Both the position numbers and the translations under genes were made by a program. A DNA stretch of 64,000 nt from contig JAPLTG010000028.1 in NCBI GenBank assembly GCA_026398255.1, positions 62,001 through 126,000 of the forward strand. Direction: 5' to 3'. The notes under the pieces are model-generated. The model had not been told where the DNA came from and did no database searches. It saw only the letters and a list, made by a program, of their open reading frames with translations. Positions 124 to 42,043 of the stretch are shown here, piece by piece (the first letter of the stretch is position 1; each line of letters starts with the position of its first letter). Source of the stretch: Verrucomicrobiota bacterium (GTDB taxonomy: Bacteria > Verrucomicrobiota > Verrucomicrobiia > Chthoniobacterales > Terrimicrobiaceae).

Positions 124-1961
124 CGGGTTGGATTGCGAGCGCTCCATTGCTGCCAGACATATTCGCACCAGAGGTGCAGACGCTCATCGGAGCGACCGGC
201 GAGATGGGAATCGAGATGCTCGCGGAGAAGAGAGTTTTTGGGTTCGGGAGCGATGCGGCCAGTGCGAAGCCAAGCGCCGACCGGGGTGCCAAAGCCTTTC
301 TTTTTGCGATGGACGATCTTGGCGGGCAGGAGCTTTTCGGCGGCGCGCTTGAGTAGGTATTTGGTGGTTTTTCCTCGGAGCTTGAAAGAGTGAGGCAATC
401 GACGGGCGAAGTCGGCGACTTCGATGTCGAGAAAGGGACTGCGAACTTCGAGAGAGTTCATCATACTTGCGCGGTCGGCCTTCGCGAGGATGCCATCCTG
501 CAGGTAGATTTCTGTGTAAAATTGAAGCGTGCGGTCCACAGGATCGGTTGTGGCGCATGACTCCCAGGCCTCGATCGACTCGCTGTAGATTTCCTCAATC
601 GAAAATCGGGCACCGGTGAGGCGGGCCAGATCAGAGGGTTCGAGTGCGCCGAGCCAGACGGGATTCCAAAGCCTCGGCGGATGATCGAGTCCGCGCAGGG
701 TGCGTTTGATTTTGAAATCGAGGCTGATGTTTTTGTGGGAAACAGGGAGGCGGGCGGCGAGGAGGCGCAAGGCCGCATGGAGAGGACGAGGAACAACTTT
801 TCGGTAAATCTCCGCGAGGCGGAGCGCTCGAAAGGGATCGTAGCCAGCGAAGAGTTCGTCCCCCCCATCGCCACTGAGGGCGACGGTGACTTTCGTCCGC
901 GCAAACCGGCAGAGCAGCCAAGTCGGGAGGAGCGAGCTGTCACCCTGAGGTTCATCCAATCGATCAAAAATTTGCGGCAAAGCAGCGAGGGCCCCGTCGA
1001 GACTCAGCGTATCAACATGATGGTCCGTTTTAAGAAAATCGGCGACTCGAGCGGCGAAGAAAGACTCGTCGAAAGACGGCTCGCGAAAACCGATGGTGAA
1101 TGTTTTCAAGCCATGAGGAGCGTCCTTCCGGCCAGCCAGTGCTGCGATGGTGGAGGAATCCAAGCCTCCACTTAAAAACACGCCAAGCGGCACATCCGCG
1201 ACGAGGCGCCGAGCCGTGGCACGGGTCAGGATTTCGAGGAGTTCCTCGAGCAAGGCCGGCTCGCTTTTGGGCTTCGCAGCGGGCTCGATCGTGTAGCGCC
1301 ACCAGCGTTGGATTCGTGGAGCGGAACCGCCCAGATCCAGCGTGAGATGATGGGCAGCGGGGAGTTTTTGGATTCCCTCGATGGCGGTGTGAGGCGCAGG
1401 GATCAAGGCGTGGGCGAGAAACTTGACCCGTGCGAGTTCGGATTCACTGCGCGGCGCGAGGGGATGCTCGAGGAGCGAAGTCAACTCCGAGGCGAACCCG
1501 AAGGTTCCCTGTCGATGGAACCAATAGAGTGGTTTTTTTCCAAAGCGGTCGCGGGCGAGAAAGAGCCGTTTCTCGCGTCCGTCCAAAATGGCAAAAGCCC
1601 ACATGCCATTAAGTCGATCGAGCATGGCCGACCCCCATTCCCGCCAGGCGTAAAGAAGCACCTCGGTATCGGAATGATCGGTTGCGAAGACATGCCCCCT
1701 CGCCTGCAATTGGGCGCGGAGTTCTGCGTGATTGTAAATCTCCCCGTTGAAAACAATAACCGTTTGGCCGTCGACGGTAGACATCGGCTGTGCGCCGCCG
1801 GAGAGGTCGATGATGGATAACCGGCGATGACCGAGAAACACCCCGGCCTCTGGTTTTTCAAAAAATCCCTGGGCATCGGGCCCGCGATGAACCAATCGAT
1901 CCGTCATTCGGCGCAATACCGCGCCATCCCCCGCGCCGACGAATCCGGCGATTCCGCACAT
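120..1961 (-). CDS. asnB: Asparagine synthase (glutamine-hydrolysing) type amidotransferase
   Basis: 613 residues. The protein begins MCGIAGF, giving the class II glutaminase nucleophile Cys2; further glutaminase motifs are RGPDAQG (26-32) and FNGEIYNH (71-78). The synthetase half has the PP-loop SGGLDSS (264-270) and SGDGGDE further on. It transfers ammonia from glutamine to an ATP-activated carboxylate in the cytoplasm. The start is fixed by Cys2 and by a TGATG junction with the upstream GT2 gene. Between two glycosyltransferases and near an exosortase-associated gene it may act in exopolysaccharide modification rather than asparagine supply; such AsnB homologues are common in these loci. 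The enzyme class is certain, the substrate is not. Confidence 0.9.
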   Translation of the reverse strand: MCGIAGFVGAGDGAVLRRMTDRLVHRGPDAQGFFEKPEAGVFLGHRRLSIIDLSGGAQPMSTVDGQTVIVFNGEIYNHAELRAQLQARGHVFATDHSDTEVLLYAWREWGSAMLDRLNGMWAFAILDGREKRLFLARDRFGKKPLYWFHRQGTFGFASELTSLLEHPLAPRSESELARVKFLAHALIPAPHTAIEGIQKLPAAHHLTLDLGGSAPRIQRWWRYTIEPAAKPKSEPALLEELLEILTRATARRLVADVPLGVFLSGGLDSSTIAALAGRKDAPHGLKTFTIGFREPSFDESFFAARVADFLKTDHHVDTLSLDGALAALPQIFDRLDEPQGDSSLLPTWLLCRFARTKVTVALSGDGGDELFAGYDPFRALRLAEIYRKVVPRPLHAALRLLAARLPVSHKNISLDFKIKRTLRGLDHPPRLWNPVWLGALEPSDLARLTGARFSIEEIYSESIEAWESCATTDPVDRTLQFYTEIYLQDGILAKADRASMMNSLEVRSPFLDIEVADFARRLPHSFKLRGKTTKYLLKRAAEKLLPAKIVHRKKKGFGTPVGAWLRTGRIAPEPKNSLLREHLDSHLAGRSDERLHLWCEYVWQQWSARNPTR

Positions 1962-2923
1962 CAGATGGCGGAGGTTTTCCCGTCCAGATTGCGGGTGTCG
2001 CGGACCATGTAGATGGCCTTGTTTTGCGACTCGTGAAAGGTGCGAGTGACCATCTCGGCAAGCAGGCCCATGAGAAAACAAATGACGCCGGTCATGAATG
2101 AAAAGATAGCCATCATCGGCAGCGGCGTGGCGGTGAAAAAATACCCTCGCGTGCGCATGTAGAGGGCCCAGGCGGTGAATCCGACGGAGCCGCAGAGAAA
2201 CAAGAATCCCCAGAAACCGAAAAGATACATCGGCTTGAGCATGTAGCGGTCCATGAAGCGGACGGTCAGGAGATCCATGACGACCTTGAGCACTCGCTCG
2301 AGGCCGTATTTGGAGTGACCGGTCTTGCGGGCGTGGTGGTTCACAGGGAGTTCCGTGATGCGGGCGCCGTGCCACTTCGCATAGATCGGCAGAAAGCGGT
2401 GCATCTCGCCGTAGAGACGGACGCCTTTGATGACCTCGGCGCGATAGGCTTTCAGCGAGCAACCGAAATCGTGGAGCTCCACACCCGAGACAGCGGAGAT
2501 GAGCTTGTTGGCAAAGATGCTCGGGATGTTTCGCTGAAGCGCATTGTCCTGCCGGTCCTTTCGCCAGCCGGAGCATACTTCGTAACCCTCGTCCAGCTTG
2601 GCGACGATCCGAGGGATGTCCTCGGGATCGTTTTGGCCGTCGCCATCGAGTGGAATGATCGTTTCACCTTGGGCAAAATCAAATCCTGCCATCATGGCGG
2701 CCGTTTGGCCGAAATTCCGACGAAAGTGAACGACTTTGACTTCAGGATTTTTCGAGGCGAGATCGTCTAATAGCTTCTCGCTGCCGTCGTGGCTCCCGTC
2801 ATTGACGAAAATGATCTCCCAGTCGTTGCCATAATGCGCGCGCATGACGCGTTGCACTTTTTCGAACAACGGCGTTAAAGCCTCACGCTCGTTGTAAACA
2901 GGGACGGAAAGTGAAATTTTCAT
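1961..2923 (-). CDS. GT2 family polyprenyl-phosphate glycosyltransferase (ArnC/GtrB-like)
   Basis: 320 residues. The N-terminal GT-A domain starts SLSVPVYNE and has VNDGSHDGS, RNFGQTAAMMAGF and the metal-binding LDGDGQNDPEDI. Two hydrophobic segments follow at about 228-255 and 262-290 (MYLFGFWGFLFLCG; MMAIFSFMTGVICFLMG). This layout matches enzymes that move a sugar from a nucleotide donor to undecaprenyl or dolichyl phosphate at the inner membrane. Its TGA overlaps the ATG of the asparagine-synthase gene by one base, so they are coupled. The actual sugar is unknown. Confidence 0.88.
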   Translation of the reverse strand: MKISLSVPVYNEREALTPLFEKVQRVMRAHYGNDWEIIFVNDGSHDGSEKLLDDLASKNPEVKVVHFRRNFGQTAAMMAGFDFAQGETIIPLDGDGQNDPEDIPRIVAKLDEGYEVCSGWRKDRQDNALQRNIPSIFANKLISAVSGVELHDFGCSLKAYRAEVIKGVRLYGEMHRFLPIYAKWHGARITELPVNHHARKTGHSKYGLERVLKVVMDLLTVRFMDRYMLKPMYLFGFWGFLFLCGSVGFTAWALYMRTRGYFFTATPLPMMAIFSFMTGVICFLMGLLAEMVTRTFHESQNKAIYMVRDTRNLDGKTSAI

Positions 2924-2966
2924 CCCCTAAAACAATCCCCCATTTTGTCCCAAAACTCAGCCAGGC

Positions 2967-3380
2967 TCACAGGTTCGAGCTGAGACGACTGTAATCGTAT
3001 CGGGTCTCGAATCCCAACTCAGGCGGAAATTCCGAGTAACCCGAGTTGATCCATGGAATGTCGCTCCGATAGGGCGGGTAGTAGCTGCCGTTGTGTGTGG
3101 GGAAAGGGAAGAGGGCGACTTCGTAGATGCCGAAACCCAGGCGCGCAAAAACCCTTCCAACTCCTCGAACGAGACCGTAGCTGAATGCCGCCGAATTGCC
3201 CTCGAGGTCATTGATGACCGACATTTGAAATGGGATTTCGGTAAGGCCAAAGGCGATGTTTCCGAGTCCACGGCCCAGCTTGCGAGTCGCTCCGTAATCC
3301 GAAGCAGGAGGCGCTTGGATATCCGCAAATACCGGGGAACACACGATCACGGCCAGGAGGGCGAAGAAAATTGGCTTCAT
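2967..3380 (-). CDS. Exosortase-system-associated protein, TIGR04073-like
   Basis: 137 residues with a signal peptide (MKPIFFALLAVIVCSPVFA, cleavage near Ala19-Asp20). The mature part has KLGRGLGNIAFGLTEIP followed by a second glycine-rich hydrophobic stretch (YGLVRGVGRVFARLGFGIYE) and a PFPTHNG segment. This resembles the small exported TIGR04073 family that occurs beside exosortase/exopolysaccharide loci; I recognise it by pattern only. It lies 43 bp upstream of the GT2 gene on the same strand. The biochemical role of the family is not known. Confidence 0.7.
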   Translation of the reverse strand: MKPIFFALLAVIVCSPVFADIQAPPASDYGATRKLGRGLGNIAFGLTEIPFQMSVINDLEGNSAAFSYGLVRGVGRVFARLGFGIYEVALFPFPTHNGSYYPPYRSDIPWINSGYSEFPPELGFETRYDYSRLSSNL

Positions 3381-3479
3381 CTGCCTGCATTAAGAGTCCG
3401 ATGCCCGCGTTCCATCAAGGAAAAAACCGCTTGGCGAGTTGCAGGGAAAATCCGCCTTGCTTTGGAAGAGCGCGGCGGG

Positions 3480-3752
3480 ATGATGGCATGCATGATTGAG
3501 GTGGAAATCTACGCGGCAGGAGTCCGGCAGCCCGATAAAATGCTGGGTCTGGCTCTCGAGTTGGATGTGATTCCGAACCTTCGCTACAAGGCGGATACAA
3601 ACCACGATGTGGTTTTCATGGAGTTCGGGGGCGAGCTTCCTTCGATCGAATCCATCGAATCCATTTTCCGAAAGATCGGCTTGGAGCCTCGCTTTGTCGG
3701 CCAACTTCCCCAAGCGGGAAACTCAGGTAAGAAAACCCAGAGAATCCTCTAG
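3480..3752 (+). CDS. Small conserved protein preceding the Mla operon, ACT/NIL-like fold suggested
   Basis: About 90 residues. The start is ambiguous among three in-frame ATGs at 3480, 3483 and 3492; a GGAAGAG lies about 13 bases upstream of the first. The sequence alternates strand-helix-strand-strand-helix-strand (VEIYAAG, DKMLGLALEL, NLRYKAD, HDVVFMEFGG, IESIFRKIG, RFVGQLP), as in small ferredoxin-like ACT or NIL domains. It ends 27 bp before mlaE on the same strand, so co-transcription is likely. There is no catalytic motif; a ligand-sensing or accessory role for the transporter is inference. Confidence 0.55.
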   Translation: MMACMIEVEIYAAGVRQPDKMLGLALELDVIPNLRYKADTNHDVVFMEFGGELPSIESIESIFRKIGLEPRFVGQLPQAGNSGKKTQRIL

Positions 3753-36499: not shown

Positions 36500-36630
36500 G
36501 AGCGGCGATCCAAGCACGCCACCCGCCCGTAGAAAAGCCCTCGTCAGCCAAATCCTCGGAGTTGTTTTCAGGATGCACTGAGTGACATCACTCCTCCCGC
36601 GCCATGGCGGGCTCGGGTTCAGCCGCGTTT

Positions 36631-36772
36631 TCACATGTTTTGGACTCGAAGGGCGCCATGGATTTTTGCTCTCAAACCCTTTCCCCGGCGCCGACGGAGC
36701 GTCGCCCTCCAACTTTTGGATGGGGACGCGGTCTGCCTTTCGAAACCCGTTCCGGGTTCCGCTACGAACGGG
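36631..36772. repeat. 142-bp palindromic repeat, copy A
   Basis: Begins TCACATGTTTTGGACTCG and ends CTACGAACGGG. It contains nested inverted pairs, CCCGTTC with GAACGGG and AACCCG with CGGGTT. It translates plausibly in several frames only because of its composition; it lies in the non-coding gap between kup and vapC. Copy D at 37018 is nearly identical. Confidence 0.85.
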
Positions 36773-36793
36773 CGCGGGGTTGGTCCCGCGTAT

Positions 36794-36909
36794 TCACATG
36801 TTTTGGACTCGAAGAGCGCCATGGATTTTTGCTCTCAAACCCTTCCCCCGGCGCCGACGGAGCGTCGCCCTCCAACTTTTGGATGCGGACGCGGTCTGCC
36901 TTTCGAAAC
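36794..36909. repeat. Palindromic repeat, copy B (3' part replaced)
   Basis: Matches copies A and D from TCACATG up to TTTCGAAAC, then breaks directly into the truncated copy C, so the CCCGTTCCGGG tail is missing from this copy. It differs by a few bases (GATGCGGAC for GATGGGGAC). The join looks like recombination between two repeat copies. Confidence 0.8.
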
Positions 36910-36985
36910 GAGCGTCGCCCTCCAACTTTTGGATGGGGGCGCGGTCTGCCTTTCGAAACCCGTTCCGGGTTCCGCTACGAACGGG
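36910..36985. repeat. Palindromic repeat, copy C (5'-truncated)
   Basis: Starts inside the unit at GAGCGTCGCCCTCCAAC and continues to GAACGGG, giving only the last half of the 142-bp unit. It is directly fused to copy B. Confidence 0.8.
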
Positions 36986-37017
36986 ATTTGGGTCGGCTCG
37001 GGGTCGGTCCCGCGTAT

Positions 37018-37159
37018 TCACATGTTTTGGACTCGAAGAGCGCCATGGATTTTTGCTCTCAAACCCTTCCCCCGGCGCCGACGGAGCGTCGCCCTCCAAC
37101 TTTTGGATGGGAACGCGGTCTGCCTTTCGAAACCCGTTCCGGGTTCCGCTACGAACGGG
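37018..37159. repeat. 142-bp palindromic repeat, copy D
   Basis: Full-length unit identical or nearly so to copy A, including the CCCGTTC...GAACGGG pair (end at 37159). The spacer before it (GATTTGGGTCGGCTCGGGG) differs from the spacer after copy A. The gap 36500-37211 holds only these repeats plus short unique edges; I see no gene in it. Confidence 0.85.
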
Positions 37160-37211: not shown

Positions 37212-37598
37212 CTACTCCAACCTGGGGAGGCTAGGAATTCTGTCGAAATGGGCGTCGCGCGAATAGAGGACGAGAGAGTGCTCGATAGCGAGAGCGGCGA
37301 TCCAGAGGTCGTTCGTGGGGATCGGCGTGCCGTCTTTTTTTAAGCGGGCGTAAAGGGTGGCGTAGTGGTGGGTCGTGGTGTCGCTGCTGTGGGCGACCCG
37401 CACACCGGGTTGCTGGAGGAGTTCGGCGAGGATCCGCACTTGGGCGTCGCCGCGTTTGATCGACGCCGCGCCGACGCGGATTTCTGCCAATACGATGAAC
37501 GGCACGACGAGCAAGGCGGCTTGTTCGAAAGCTTCAACGACCTCTGGCACCCCTGCGCAGAAGTCGATGAAGCGGTTGGAATCGATGAGAATCCTCAC
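37212..37598 (-). CDS. vapC: PIN-domain toxin (VapC-like ribonuclease)
   Basis: 128 residues from a GTG at 37598. PIN acidic residues are in ILIDSNRFIDF (Asp), VLAEIRVG (Glu) and TNDLWIAALAIEH (Asp), with a final SRDAHFDRI. PIN toxins cut RNA. The GTG overlaps the antitoxin stop codon (GTGA at 37595-37598), so they are coupled. A longer upstream frame exists but runs through the antitoxin gene. Confidence 0.85.
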   Translation of the reverse strand: MRILIDSNRFIDFCAGVPEVVEAFEQAALLVVPFIVLAEIRVGAASIKRGDAQVRILAELLQQPGVRVAHSSDTTTHHYATLYARLKKDGTPIPTNDLWIAALAIEHSLVLYSRDAHFDRIPSLPRLE

Positions 37599-37861
37599 TT
37601 CCAGTCCTCGGGATTCGTCTGGTCTTGTTCCTCGAGCGCGGCTTGCCACGCTTTGGTGGAAACTTTGGGAGTCTGGGCGATCATTTGGCGCAGAGTCCGG
37701 TAGCGGACGGGTTGCCGCTCGCTCCCAAGTCCCCGCTCCAAGGCTCGCAAGGTGGCTTGGTTGAGGCTCACCCCCTCCAAGGCGGCGCTTTCCCGCAAAA
37801 GGCCATCCACTTCCTCCGGAACATCCCGAACCGTGTATTGAACTGTTGGTTTCTTTTCCAT
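37595..37861 (-). CDS. vapB: Ribbon-helix-helix antitoxin (VapB/FitA-like)
   Basis: 88 residues from ATG 37861. VQYTVRDVPEEVDGLL is the DNA-binding strand and first helix of RHH antitoxins, followed by EGVSLNQATLRALERGL. The C-terminal half (QMIAQTPKVSTKAWQAALEE) would bind and block the toxin. Its start codon abuts the perfect inverted repeat at 37861-37890, a likely autoregulatory operator. An in-frame TTG at 37873 is also open. Confidence 0.82.
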   Translation of the reverse strand: MEKKPTVQYTVRDVPEEVDGLLRESAALEGVSLNQATLRALERGLGSERQPVRYRTLRQMIAQTPKVSTKAWQAALEEQDQTNPEDWK

Positions 37862-37890
37862 GCCTGCACTCAACTACAAGAGTGCAGGCA
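37861..37890. promoter_or_regulatory. Operator-like 11-bp perfect inverted repeat of vapBC
   Basis: TGCCTGCACTC, eight bases, GAGTGCAGGCA: perfect arms at 37861-37871 and 37880-37890. The left arm includes the last base of the antitoxin start codon, as expected for an RHH antitoxin that represses its own operon. Also could form an RNA hairpin, but it lacks a T-run. Confidence 0.7.
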
Positions 37891-38536: not shown

Positions 38537-39748
38537 TTAATCCAGTTTGGGCCCGGTTCCGCGGGCGCGTTCCGGCGGTTTCCAGCCGGGTGGCCGTTCT
38601 GGAGGGGGACCAGTCACATTGATCGCCAAATTGGGGATGTCAGAGCGGGAAAAACATTCGTTCGGCAAACTAATCGACCACCCGCAAGGTATTCCTTTTT
38701 TATCTGCAATTTCCCTCGCCAGAGCGTAGGCATACATCGATGGGGAATCCACCACGAACATAAGCACATCATTGGGCGGACGAAGCTTGCTGATATCGGA
38801 AGCAAACCCGTTGGTCGGCTTTGAGAGCTCCTCAATAGGAGTGCCACCATTTTTGTCAAAACCACCAATATCCATACGCGCCCCTCCAAACCAGGGCTGT
38901 GAATTCACACTACCGCCCAGACCGGGAGGCAAGATTTTCTTCAGTTTTTCATTCAAGATCGGAAGGACTTTGTCACGATCAAGGACAACGGGCTTTTCTT
39001 TCTTGGCCTCAGCTTTTTCCTTTTCGCGTGCGGCCCTTCTTTCTGCGGCAGACAACTTTTTATCCTCTTCCTCTTCGGTTTTTTCCCCTGTGGCTATATG
39101 GTTGCTTTTGTCATCCTTGAGTTTATCCACAATCTCAGCCATTTCTTCTTGGTATTTGGGAAGATCAACGAAATAAGCTCTGTCTGCTATAATATAAGCA
39201 TAATGAACTTTGGCCCCCTCGGGAATGGGGCGCGTGGCGGGAATGGTGATCTCGGTTGCGGGAATGTCTTTAGCCACAGGGGTGGTATCGAGCATGGCCT
39301 CCAAACTGGCGATCTCCTCCATCATGGCGTTCGCTTTTACTTGCTCCGCGTCGCGAGCCGCTAACTTATCATCATGAAGTTTTTGCAATTCCGCGATATT
39401 TTTATTGTTCGTGTCGATGGCAGACTTTTTGTTTTGGACCAATGTCTGCAATGCGGAGATTTTTTGGTTGATGCTATCCAGATCGACTTTGGGAGGAGGG
39501 GGGAGTTTTTTGAGCTCTTCGAGTTTTTTCTTATCGATCTCGAGTTGCTTGAGCATGTCCTTGAGTTTCTGAATCTCCTCCGGGGAGGCAGGCACGAGAT
39601 CCTCCATCATTTGCACAACCTTCTGGGAGACCTCGCAATTCACCAGAAGAAGGACGAAAATCAGAACCGCCACGACATTCGTGAGAGCATCCATCAAGGA
39701 ATCCAGACTGCCTGTATCCTCTTCGACGACTTTTCTTCGTTGGGGCAT
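38537..39748 (-). CDS. ExbD/TolR-like membrane protein with long coiled coil (subunit C)
   Basis: 403 residues. A TolR/ExbD-like anchor SLMDALTNVVAVLIFVLLLV at about 16-35 has the Asp just before the helix, where ExbD proteins carry their essential proton-binding acid. A coiled coil rich in Lys and Glu (55-155) follows, then a highly charged stretch (225-255) and a C-terminal globular part with KPPERARGTGPKLD. It starts seven bases after the previous gene and is the last gene of a three-gene operon with an ExbB-like protein. Periplasmic function unknown. Confidence 0.7.
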   Translation of the reverse strand: MPQRRKVVEEDTGSLDSLMDALTNVVAVLIFVLLLVNCEVSQKVVQMMEDLVPASPEEIQKLKDMLKQLEIDKKKLEELKKLPPPPKVDLDSINQKISALQTLVQNKKSAIDTNNKNIAELQKLHDDKLAARDAEQVKANAMMEEIASLEAMLDTTPVAKDIPATEITIPATRPIPEGAKVHYAYIIADRAYFVDLPKYQEEMAEIVDKLKDDKSNHIATGEKTEEEEDKKLSAAERRAAREKEKAEAKKEKPVVLDRDKVLPILNEKLKKILPPGLGGSVNSQPWFGGARMDIGGFDKNGGTPIEELSKPTNGFASDISKLRPPNDVLMFVVDSPSMYAYALAREIADKKGIPCGWSISLPNECFSRSDIPNLAINVTGPPPERPPGWKPPERARGTGPKLD

Positions 39749-39754
39749 GATTTT

Positions 39755-40669
39755 TTAGAGTTTCTTCAAGCGGAAACCAGAGAGGTCAATTTTGCCGTCG
39801 TTGGGCACGGGAAGTTTGGAGGTTTTGACCTTGAAATCGAGTTCTGCAAGGGCGTTAGCGTAATTGTAAGAAAGGATCCCCCCTTTGCGGACCAGGAAGA
39901 GAATGACATAATCCTCGCCGGAGGATTGCTTGGCGTTGATGCAAAAATCGTGAAATTCCACACTGGAGCCGGCTATGATGGATTCAATAGGGATGGCCTT
40001 GGTCTCATCGCCCGTTCCGCGGAGGACGATGCCAGTCGAGTTGCACTCGACGAAGAACAAGTTACGAGGAGCCTTGACGCCGATCTTGGGAGCTTTGATT
40101 TTGACCGATTCTTTGGGAACTGGTTTTTCTTTGAGCGCAGCGACTTTGGCTTTCAACTCCTCGATCTTTTTCTCCATGGGCGGGTGCCCTTTTTCGATAG
40201 CGATCTTTTCTTCCGAATAAAGCTGGATTTTTGTCTTTAGCTCGTCTTCTGGAGAAATCTTCACCTTATCGAGCTCGTTTTTTTGCTTTTCCAGCTCTAA
40301 AAGCATGAGCTTGAGCTTTTCCAACTCCAAGGCGTCGAGGTTGTTTTTGGTCGGTTCGGGCTTGCTTTTATCAAGCTCGTCTTTTTTCTGTTTTAGTAAG
40401 AAAGCCAGAGACTTAGCTTCCTGCGCACGCTTGACATCCTCCTCGGTCATCCCCTCTTTTTTCTGGTTCACCGCCATGCTGAGGCCGATGAGCAGGGTCA
40501 GGATGCCGATGAGGCTGGCCAAGATGCTCATGAACGGGAAGAGGGAGACGGCCCCGCGCCGGGTGGCGATCAGGGGCTTCATGGCAGGGGCGGGATTGGA
40601 GAAAAATGTTCCATTTTCCGCTACTGGGTTTCTCGCAGAGCGGGATTCCAGCTGTTCCGTTACGGGCAT
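39755..40669 (-). CDS. ExbD-like membrane protein with coiled coil, no helix Asp (subunit B)
   Basis: 304 residues from ATG 40669, which has a CTGGAAACG before it; ATG 40582 is the shorter choice. The single membrane helix (SLFPFMSILASLIGILTLLIGLSMA, about 42-66) resembles ExbD but has no Asp. A Lys/Glu-rich coiled coil follows (80-190), then a C-terminal ExbD-like periplasmic part (VKAPRNLFFVECNSTGIVL). With subunit C it would form a heteropair around the ExbB-like pore. The gene is A+T-richer than its surroundings. Confidence 0.7.
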   Translation of the reverse strand: MPVTEQLESRSARNPVAENGTFFSNPAPAMKPLIATRRGAVSLFPFMSILASLIGILTLLIGLSMAVNQKKEGMTEEDVKRAQEAKSLAFLLKQKKDELDKSKPEPTKNNLDALELEKLKLMLLELEKQKNELDKVKISPEDELKTKIQLYSEEKIAIEKGHPPMEKKIEELKAKVAALKEKPVPKESVKIKAPKIGVKAPRNLFFVECNSTGIVLRGTGDETKAIPIESIIAGSSVEFHDFCINAKQSSGEDYVILFLVRKGGILSYNYANALAELDFKVKTSKLPVPNDGKIDLSGFRLKKL

Positions 40670-40693
40670 CGTTTCCAGAAAGGATCCAGATGT

Positions 40694-42043
40694 TTAGTTT
40701 TTCTTAAACAATCCAAACAAGCCACCACCGCCCCCTTGGACCGGGACGCCGGAGCGCTTCATGCTTTCATTGAAGGAGTCGATGCCCGTGGCGATGCGAC
40801 GGAGAGAAGAATTCAGCTCTCCCTCGGTCTGGGAGATGAGTTGGGTGGCGGATTTGGTGAGTTGGTCTGTGGCCGTGGTGAAGGAGCGATTGATCGCTTT
40901 CTGACTCTCGACCAACTGGTTATTCGAGGCGCTGAACGCTTGGGCCATGGTGCTGTGCAATTCTGTGGCGGCCTTTTGGTTATCATGCAGCAACTGTCGC
41001 ACGGCGAGGGTGGCTTGGTTCAAGTTCTCCAAGAAGGTCGAGTGGGCCTTTGAGAGGGAGTTCACCATCTCGGGAAGGTTCTCGGCTTGGGCGAGGGTGG
41101 TATCAGCGGAAGGATCGGGCTGGCCACTTTCCTCATTGAGTTTGGGGAGGAGCTTCTCGGTGCAAAAGACATCCATGAGAGTGAGGGCGTCTTCATCTTT
41201 CTTTTGGACGAGAGCCAAGGGAAAGCTCATGAACATCGAAAGGATCAGACCAAGGAGCGTGGTGTCGAACGCCACACCGAGACCGCCGGTGAGGTTACCG
41301 ATCGCCGCCTTGAGGGCTGCGGGGTCGGAAGCGTCGATGTTGAGGGATGACACGGCTTGGGCGAGACCTTGCACCGTTCCGATAAAGCCCAAGATCGGGA
41401 TGGCCCAGAGGAAGACTTTTGTGAGCGCGTAGGAGCCGGTGGCTCGGTTGGCATCCACGGCGGAGGAGGAGTTGAGCATGGCCTCGGTTTCCGATTTGCT
41501 GTTCCGAGCTTCGAAAAGCTCGAGGGCTTTGCGGATGCGATTGACGATGATGCTGTCTCTCATCGAGGCGGGCATATCATAGATATTATCAATGAAGGCT
41601 CCGACGGTGGAGGAATCCACAACCTCACTGATATTTGAGGGAAAGAGATTGAGAAGCAGCGAGCGCTCTTGGTGTTTGATTTTCTGATACTTGAGATAAA
41701 TGATCGCCATACCCCAGAAGAAGAACCAGGTCTCGGCAAAGTCCACCCAACCGCGATCGACGAAGATGGCACCGAACGAGGCGCGAATCGGCGGGATATA
41801 CATACAGCTGAGCCAGACCGTCGAGGTGACTAAGCCGATAAGGAAGGCATGGAGGGCATTGACATTCGCGTGGTCGGACTCCTGCCAACCGTGGCGGACA
41901 GGCTTGCCGGTGATGGTCGGAAGTTCCTCGGCCGGGGCGTCGATTTTGAGTTTGCCATTGCAGACGGGGCATTGGACGACCTGACCGTAGAGATCGGGAG
42001 AGATGTCTAGATTGGCTTGGCAGTGGGAGCAGGCGATGAGCAT
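40694..42043 (-). CDS. MotA/TolQ/ExbB proton-channel protein with N-terminal zinc ribbon (subunit A)
   Basis: 449 residues. The N-terminus is a zinc ribbon C-x2-C-x16-C-x2-C (CSHCQAN...VVQCPVC). Membrane segments lie at about 62-84 and 105-120, and the TolQ/ExbB core is LWAIPILGFIGTVQGLAQAV and GGLGVAFDTTLLGLILSMF (about 212-285). A helical tail of about 110 residues ends in a Gly-rich GGGGGLFGLFKKN. Family members turn proton flow into work on a partner TonB/ExbD-like rod. The cytoplasmic zinc ribbon is unusual for this family. Confidence 0.82.
   Translation of the reverse strand: MLIACSHCQANLDISPDLYGQVVQCPVCNGKLKIDAPAEELPTITGKPVRHGWQESDHANVNALHAFLIGLVTSTVWLSCMYIPPIRASFGAIFVDRGWVDFAETWFFFWGMAIIYLKYQKIKHQERSLLLNLFPSNISEVVDSSTVGAFIDNIYDMPASMRDSIIVNRIRKALELFEARNSKSETEAMLNSSSAVDANRATGSYALTKVFLWAIPILGFIGTVQGLAQAVSSLNIDASDPAALKAAIGNLTGGLGVAFDTTLLGLILSMFMSFPLALVQKKDEDALTLMDVFCTEKLLPKLNEESGQPDPSADTTLAQAENLPEMVNSLSKAHSTFLENLNQATLAVRQLLHDNQKAATELHSTMAQAFSASNNQLVESQKAINRSFTTATDQLTKSATQLISQTEGELNSSLRRIATGIDSFNESMKRSGVPVQGGGGGLFGLFKKN

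Follow-up and report, generated by a model that had tools for sequence, protein, structure and literature searches.

What do three adjoining genes of a Verrucomicrobiota bacterium, one coding for a protein like the ring subunit of known membrane motors and two for different proteins like their axle subunits, build together? The genes lie at 38537-42043 of the window, the 64,000-nucleotide stretch of contig that we analysed, and are called A, B and C here. A reading made from the sequence alone had taken them to be a candidate membrane motor undescribed in kind. Rotary motors of the 5:2 kind consist of five ring subunits and two axle subunits and are driven by ions. The solved ones (MotAB, PomAB, ExbBD, GldLM and ZorAB) all have a homodimeric axle, and their rotation has been modelled on the assumption of two equivalent Asp residues used alternately. 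We consider the most probable answer, with a probability of roughly 0.6, to be that the trio forms one ion-driven membrane motor of this kind, in which a ring of A would surround an axle made of one B and one C.

The three genes and the probable ring protein A

All three co-directional reading frames of the earlier reading were found on the minus strand: A at 40694..42043 (449 aa), B at 39755..40669 (304 aa) and C at 38537..39748 (403 aa). The gap of 24 bp between A and B was as reported, whereas the gap between B and C is 6 bp and not 7 bp. The trio was also correctly described as richer in A+T than its neighbours; the window as a whole has a G+C content of 58.9% and the trio 52.3%, and equally low stretches of this length make up only 0.3% of those in the window. 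The neighbours in the window are housekeeping genes and a PIN/RHH pair. None of the ten neighbour proteins tested was a TonB, Pal, TolB, vWA or TPR protein, in agreement with the earlier statement that tonB, pal and tolB are not near. The PIN-domain and ribbon-helix-helix genes (37212-37873), two genes away from the trio, overlap and resemble a toxin-antitoxin pair. A 150-base direct repeat of unassigned nature occurs at 36623-37159 in three good copies (85-97% alike), and part of it is also found at the related locus in genome G015.

Protein A combines an N-terminal four-cysteine ribbon, four hydrophobic segments detected by hydropathy, a MotA/TolQ/ExbB core and a helical tail. The core assignment of the sequence-only reading was borne out by Pfam, in which A passes the PF01618 (MotA_ExbB) cut-off with 37 bits against 22.9. 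The same applies to the ribbon (C5xxC8...C25xxC28; 41960..42031, minus strand), whose four cysteines all occur in 104 of the 106 rows of the A family, the other two rows being cut at the N-terminus. Because A has four hydrophobic segments, both the ribbon and the tail are expected to be cytoplasmic. The tail (residues 303-449; 40697..41137, minus strand) varies from about 110 to about 800 residues among relatives, but its tip is conserved, and a KKGWF-like tip is often terminal. The pore-lining Thr residues conserved in the MotA/TolQ/ExbB superfamily, T223 and T262, are found in 108 of 108 rows; Thr262 forms a pair with Thr261 (41258..41263, minus strand). The residue beside this pair, 260 (41264-41266), is Asp in 99, Asn in seven and Glu in two of the 108 rows, and a hydrophobic residue occupies the position in the ordinary ExbB proteins of the same genome.

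The proposed axle subunits B and C

AlphaFold2 models predict that B and C each consist of one membrane helix, a long coiled coil and a C-terminal domain. According to the models and hydropathy, the membrane helix of B spans residues 44-71 (motif PFMSILASLIG; 40457..40540, minus strand) and that of C spans residues 15-40 (motif LDSLMDALTNVV; 39629..39706, minus strand). Asp20 of C (39689..39691, minus strand), invariant in 92 of 92 rows, is located at the usual place of the membrane Asp of ExbD/TolR (PF[I/L]D compared with LMD), where B has Ser48 (40526..40528, minus strand). Position 48 of B is Asp in ExbD/TolR; among B relatives it is Ser in 67 rows and Asp in 32. C carries an additional carboxylate, Asp16 (39701..39703, minus strand; Asp in 62 rows and Val in 30), one turn ahead of Asp20, and this second Asp accompanies the Asp-less form of B. 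The helix motifs had been quoted exactly in the sequence-only reading, with an Asp in C and none in B, but the Asp at position 16 was overlooked; the asymmetry it had seen, Ser48 in B against Asp in C, is thus matched by a second Asp in C.

The C-terminal domains of B (residues 203-287; 39809..40063, minus strand; pLDDT about 95) and C (residues 177-370; 38639..39220, minus strand) were compared with known structures. VIA-align ranked TolR 5by4 first for both models, with Z scores of 7.5 for B and 7.9 for C, which are below 8 and not strong matches standing alone; ExbD 8pek (Z 6.5) and other ExbD entries also ranked high for B. The two C-terminal domains match each other in profile comparison (probability 84, E 8e-6). 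Neither B nor C of the window passed the cut-off of any Pfam family, PF02472 (ExbD) included, and only four of 59 B relatives matched PF02472, the best at E 0.013 and under the cut-off. Homology to ExbD was not significant in profile comparison, and a Foldseek search of the models against the PDB gave nothing under E 0.001, with ExbD 8p9r at 0.1. No Pfam profile for an OmpA domain matched either protein. As the two models, the B-to-C profile match and the membrane-helix motif agree, the predicted folds of B and C resemble the periplasmic domains of TolR/ExbD, and the earlier description of two different ExbD/TolR-like partners, each with a single helix and a coiled coil, holds on these models. 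Their linkers are about 140-150 residues long.

Another view is that the trio energises a TonB or TolA protein encoded at another locus, as an ordinary ExbBD or TolQR system in which ExbD has been duplicated. The proteins belong to the same fold group, A shares its core motifs with the ordinary ExbB of this genome, and operons with two ExbD genes exist, such as exbD1/exbD2. However, the genome already has seven ordinary PF01618 matches and one MotA-like match, A has one hydrophobic segment more than the usual three, TonB, TolA and Pal are absent beside the trio, and B and C combine long linkers with scores under the Pfam ExbD cut-off. We therefore regard this explanation as very improbable; the possibility raised with the sequence-only reading, that the genes might prove to be ordinary TolQ-TolR pairs, was checked, and the trio did not reduce to such pairs. 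Compared with ExbBD and TolQR in general, the trio has the core ring motifs, the predicted TolR/ExbD-like C-terminal domain and, in C and in those B proteins that have it, the helix Asp at the same place; those systems differ in having a homodimeric axle, short linkers, a three-helix ring protein and a TonB or TolA partner.

Coupled changes in A, B and C

The distribution of the membrane Asp residues was analyzed in the non-redundant set of 92 complete trios. Residues A261/B48/C16/C20 are T/S/D/D in 61 trios, including that of the window (S-type), and A/D/V/D in 30 trios (D-type), with Haloferula rosea as an example of the former and Verrucomicrobium sp. BvORR034 of the latter; the Val rows of C16 noted above are those of the D-type. 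The remaining trio, L141, is in a mixed state of T/D/D/D, with Thr261 in A, Asp in B and both Asp residues in C. Consequently, B and C together hold two carboxylates in 91 of the 92 trios. The mixed trio (1699-3720 and 1775-2605) sits on a long branch, and its contig is short. Twelve of 1028 alignment columns separate the S-type from the D-type without error: 97, 104, 210 and 261 of A; 42, 44, 48 and 51 of B; and 14, 16, 17 and 37 of C. The eight columns of B and C are all in or beside the membrane helix, as expected from contact of A, B and C in the membrane within one complex.

The number of switches between the two types depends on the tree. A single switch suffices on the tree of A alone, whereas the B, C and joined trees need three or more coupled switches; this count is provisional, since these trees were quick ones and the last set was run under a simpler model. 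Two S-type trios of Prosthecobacter are nested in a D-type clade with full SH-aLRT support in the B, C and joined trees, and the starred branches force the D-type label to change at least twice in the joined tree and three times in the B+C tree. A single coupled switch, as on the A tree, could be rejected for B (AU p 7e-4) and for C (AU p 2e-7), in both cases on quick trees run without a mixture model. An independent-pairs test of B against C had too few pairs for significance. The linker lengths of B and C were not correlated (rho 0.11), and matching of linker lengths was dropped as evidence for a heterodimer. Gene conversion could be another source of the coupled segments, but three separate segments would need to be transferred jointly.

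That the three proteins switch jointly favours a single ring of A with a B:C axle inside it. A different arrangement is that two alternative motors share A, the ring taking an axle of either two B or two C subunits and giving two outputs, as has been thought possible for AglRQ and AglRS. B and C do differ, each with a C-terminal domain of its own, C is unlinked in six planctomycete genomes, and whether AglQ and AglS form hetero- or homodimers is not known (PMC9389320). Nevertheless, B has no membrane Asp in 61 of the 92 trios, so a motor with two B subunits would there lack the usual means of binding the ion, and the Asp positions of B and C switch together. We consider two alternative motors unlikely and retain a single motor with a B:C axle as the preferred reading.

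In such a single motor, five copies of A would form a ring in the inner membrane, and the axle inside it would be one B and one C rather than two copies of either. Ions would move between the axle Asp residues and the Thr ring on A, and ring and axle would thereby turn or be put under tension relative to one another. Through their coiled coils, B and C would pass this motion across the periplasm to the TolR/ExbD-like domains, which probably touch peptidoglycan or another envelope partner. Docking or gating of the motor is the probable task of the two cytoplasmic parts of A, the ribbon and the tail. In the S-type, to which the window belongs, both axle Asp residues would be on C and B would act as a strut; in the D-type, B and C would hold one Asp each.

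The switch also concerns residues implicated in the choice of ion. In a HMMER alignment with positions counted by hand, T223, T261 and T262 of A align with T158, T185 and T186 of PomA. These three Thr residues are reported to be conserved in all sodium-driven stators, and T158 and T185 are Ala in two proton-driven stators (PMC10374538). S-type A proteins keep all three Thr residues of the sodium site, whereas D-type A proteins have Ala at the equivalent of T185. In addition, Asp16 of C is four residues before Asp20, and the PomB residue four before its Asp, G20, gives a backbone oxygen to a sodium site. Because residue 261 of A aligns with a Thr that is Ala in two proton-driven stators, the coupling ion may change along with the switch; this is no more than a fair hypothesis from the alignment. 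We did not accept sodium drive as settled, since ordinary ExbB proteins in this genome share the Thr pair and since both freshwater and marine sources have yielded S-type trios (judged from record titles alone).

Taken to its full extent, the proposal would be an asymmetric 5:(1+1) motor, with both carboxylates of the B:C axle on one helix. Lineages would convert to and from one Asp on each subunit by coupled changes in all three proteins, and the same switch would add or remove the sodium-site Thr in the ring and might alter the coupling ion. We put this extended form forward tentatively, at clearly less than even odds. One axle subunit without Asp and a partner with two, toggling to the usual layout, would amount to a natural experiment on the number and place of ion sites. 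If the change between Thr and Ala alters the ion, the two types would offer a paired sodium/proton comparison outside the flagellum.

Distribution of the trio and comparison with known motors

With 92 non-redundant loci, the co-occurrence of A, B and C is far beyond chance, and the trio has been kept in both Verrucomicrobiota and Planctomycetota; the check proposed with the sequence-only reading, conserved co-occurrence in related genomes, thus came out positive in two phyla. A profile scan of GTDB contigs gave 80 loci, mostly from Verrucomicrobiota and a few from Planctomycetota, and a planctomycete genome panel gave further loci. Across one panel of 286 genomes from the class, full-length A and C were each found in 25, and these are the same genomes, at cut-offs (A, E<1e-90; C, E<1e-40) picked after the result tables were seen; A and C are on different contigs in one of the 25. 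The order A-B-C is kept wherever the contig is long enough, with two kinds of exception. At locus L144, B and C face a truncated A, and six related planctomycete loci have A-B without an adjoining C, which is elsewhere in all six genomes. Clustering revealed no other conserved neighbour family of the trio, as recurrent ones were confined to close relatives or lay at scattered distances.

Within the window's genus, the trio is present in two other genomes. A of G015 is 96% identical to that of the window and lies in the same surroundings, and the trio of G010 lies in other surroundings. In a third genome, G004, only part of A is present, at the end of a contig, and the genes next to it also occur at the G010 locus. 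Many members of one further family in the window's order have the trio as well, as the D-type, whereas the S-type genes of the window's genus group with those of Akkermansiaceae. This grouping and the low G+C content suggest that the genus acquired the trio by horizontal gain. No clean pre-insertion site was found in the genus, because the two genes that flank the trio are apart in the relatives. A viral origin was rejected, as no relatives were found in viral contigs.

The patchy occurrence in the genus would also fit an anti-phage system of the Zorya type, in which an A-B-C motor senses attack through the envelope and signals along the cytoplasmic tail of A. ZorAB (PMC11890865) likewise has a MotA/ExbB-like ring protein with a long cytoplasmic tail, and it was the best PADLOC match of A. 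The PADLOC ZorA profiles match A over the core and tail, although weakly (1.1e-11), ZorA 8vvn matches the A profile, and the tail of A is long and very variable in length. However, only A is matched, in coiled coil and in the region that every such motor has in common; for B, the matches were to weak coiled-coil models only. ZorB is a homodimer with an OmpA-like peptidoglycan domain, which B and C do not have, and their C-terminal domain ranks TolR first. The effectors ZorC, ZorD and ZorE are absent beside the trio, which has no conserved neighbour. We judge this role quite improbable for the trio, and compare the single motor with its other relatives below.

One TolQ-like protein with two TolR-like partners is already known, and the claim that the motor is undescribed in kind is not supported as it stood. 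AglRQS, which acts in gliding of Myxococcus xanthus (PMC3169522, PMC9389320), also combines one TolQ-like and two different TolR-like proteins encoded by adjoining genes, a composition true of all 92 trios. The PVC vWA-linked motors of Planctomycetes and Verrucomicrobia are again made of one TolQ-like and two TolR-like proteins (PMC12204202). Against these precedents, the differences are in the details. AglQ and AglS both retain the membrane Asp, whereas in 61 of the complete trios, that of the window among them, B has Ser48. AglQ and AglS are short (162 and 194 aa) and detected by Pfam ExbD, unlike B and C, and a ribbon or long tail is not described for AglR, whereas A has both. No glt gliding genes were found among the neighbours of the trio. 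For the PVC motors, a TPR gene and a gene for a vWA transducer belong to the same cluster; neither is a conserved neighbour of the trio, judging from the ten window neighbours and the clustering of relatives. PomAB, the sodium stator, has four membrane helices like A and the Thr triad aligned above, but its PomB axle is a homodimer in which each subunit has a single Asp, and Gly takes the place of Asp16 of C (PMC10374538); no flagellar genes lie beside the trio. In a limited search of the open literature, we found no description of the trio or of a trade of Asp between axle partners. The trio makes a question about AglRQS testable, namely whether two TolR-like partners share one ring.

Two groups of related proteins were also observed. 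A distant, ribbon-less cousin of A is encoded in larger operons (L034:316-9608, L035:6104-16000 and L216:5968-9798) together with ExbD-like proteins (two in L035 and L216) and GYF_2, trypsin-like or PrsW proteins. The L034 operon also encodes a GAP1-N2 protein, a type found in GTPase-centred conflict systems. ExbB and ExbD go unmentioned in the paper describing these systems. In genomes of family f18 (e.g., G100:C97:31119-33748), a longer A-like protein (frames of 570-640 aa) is encoded near a short C-like protein of about 215-235 aa.
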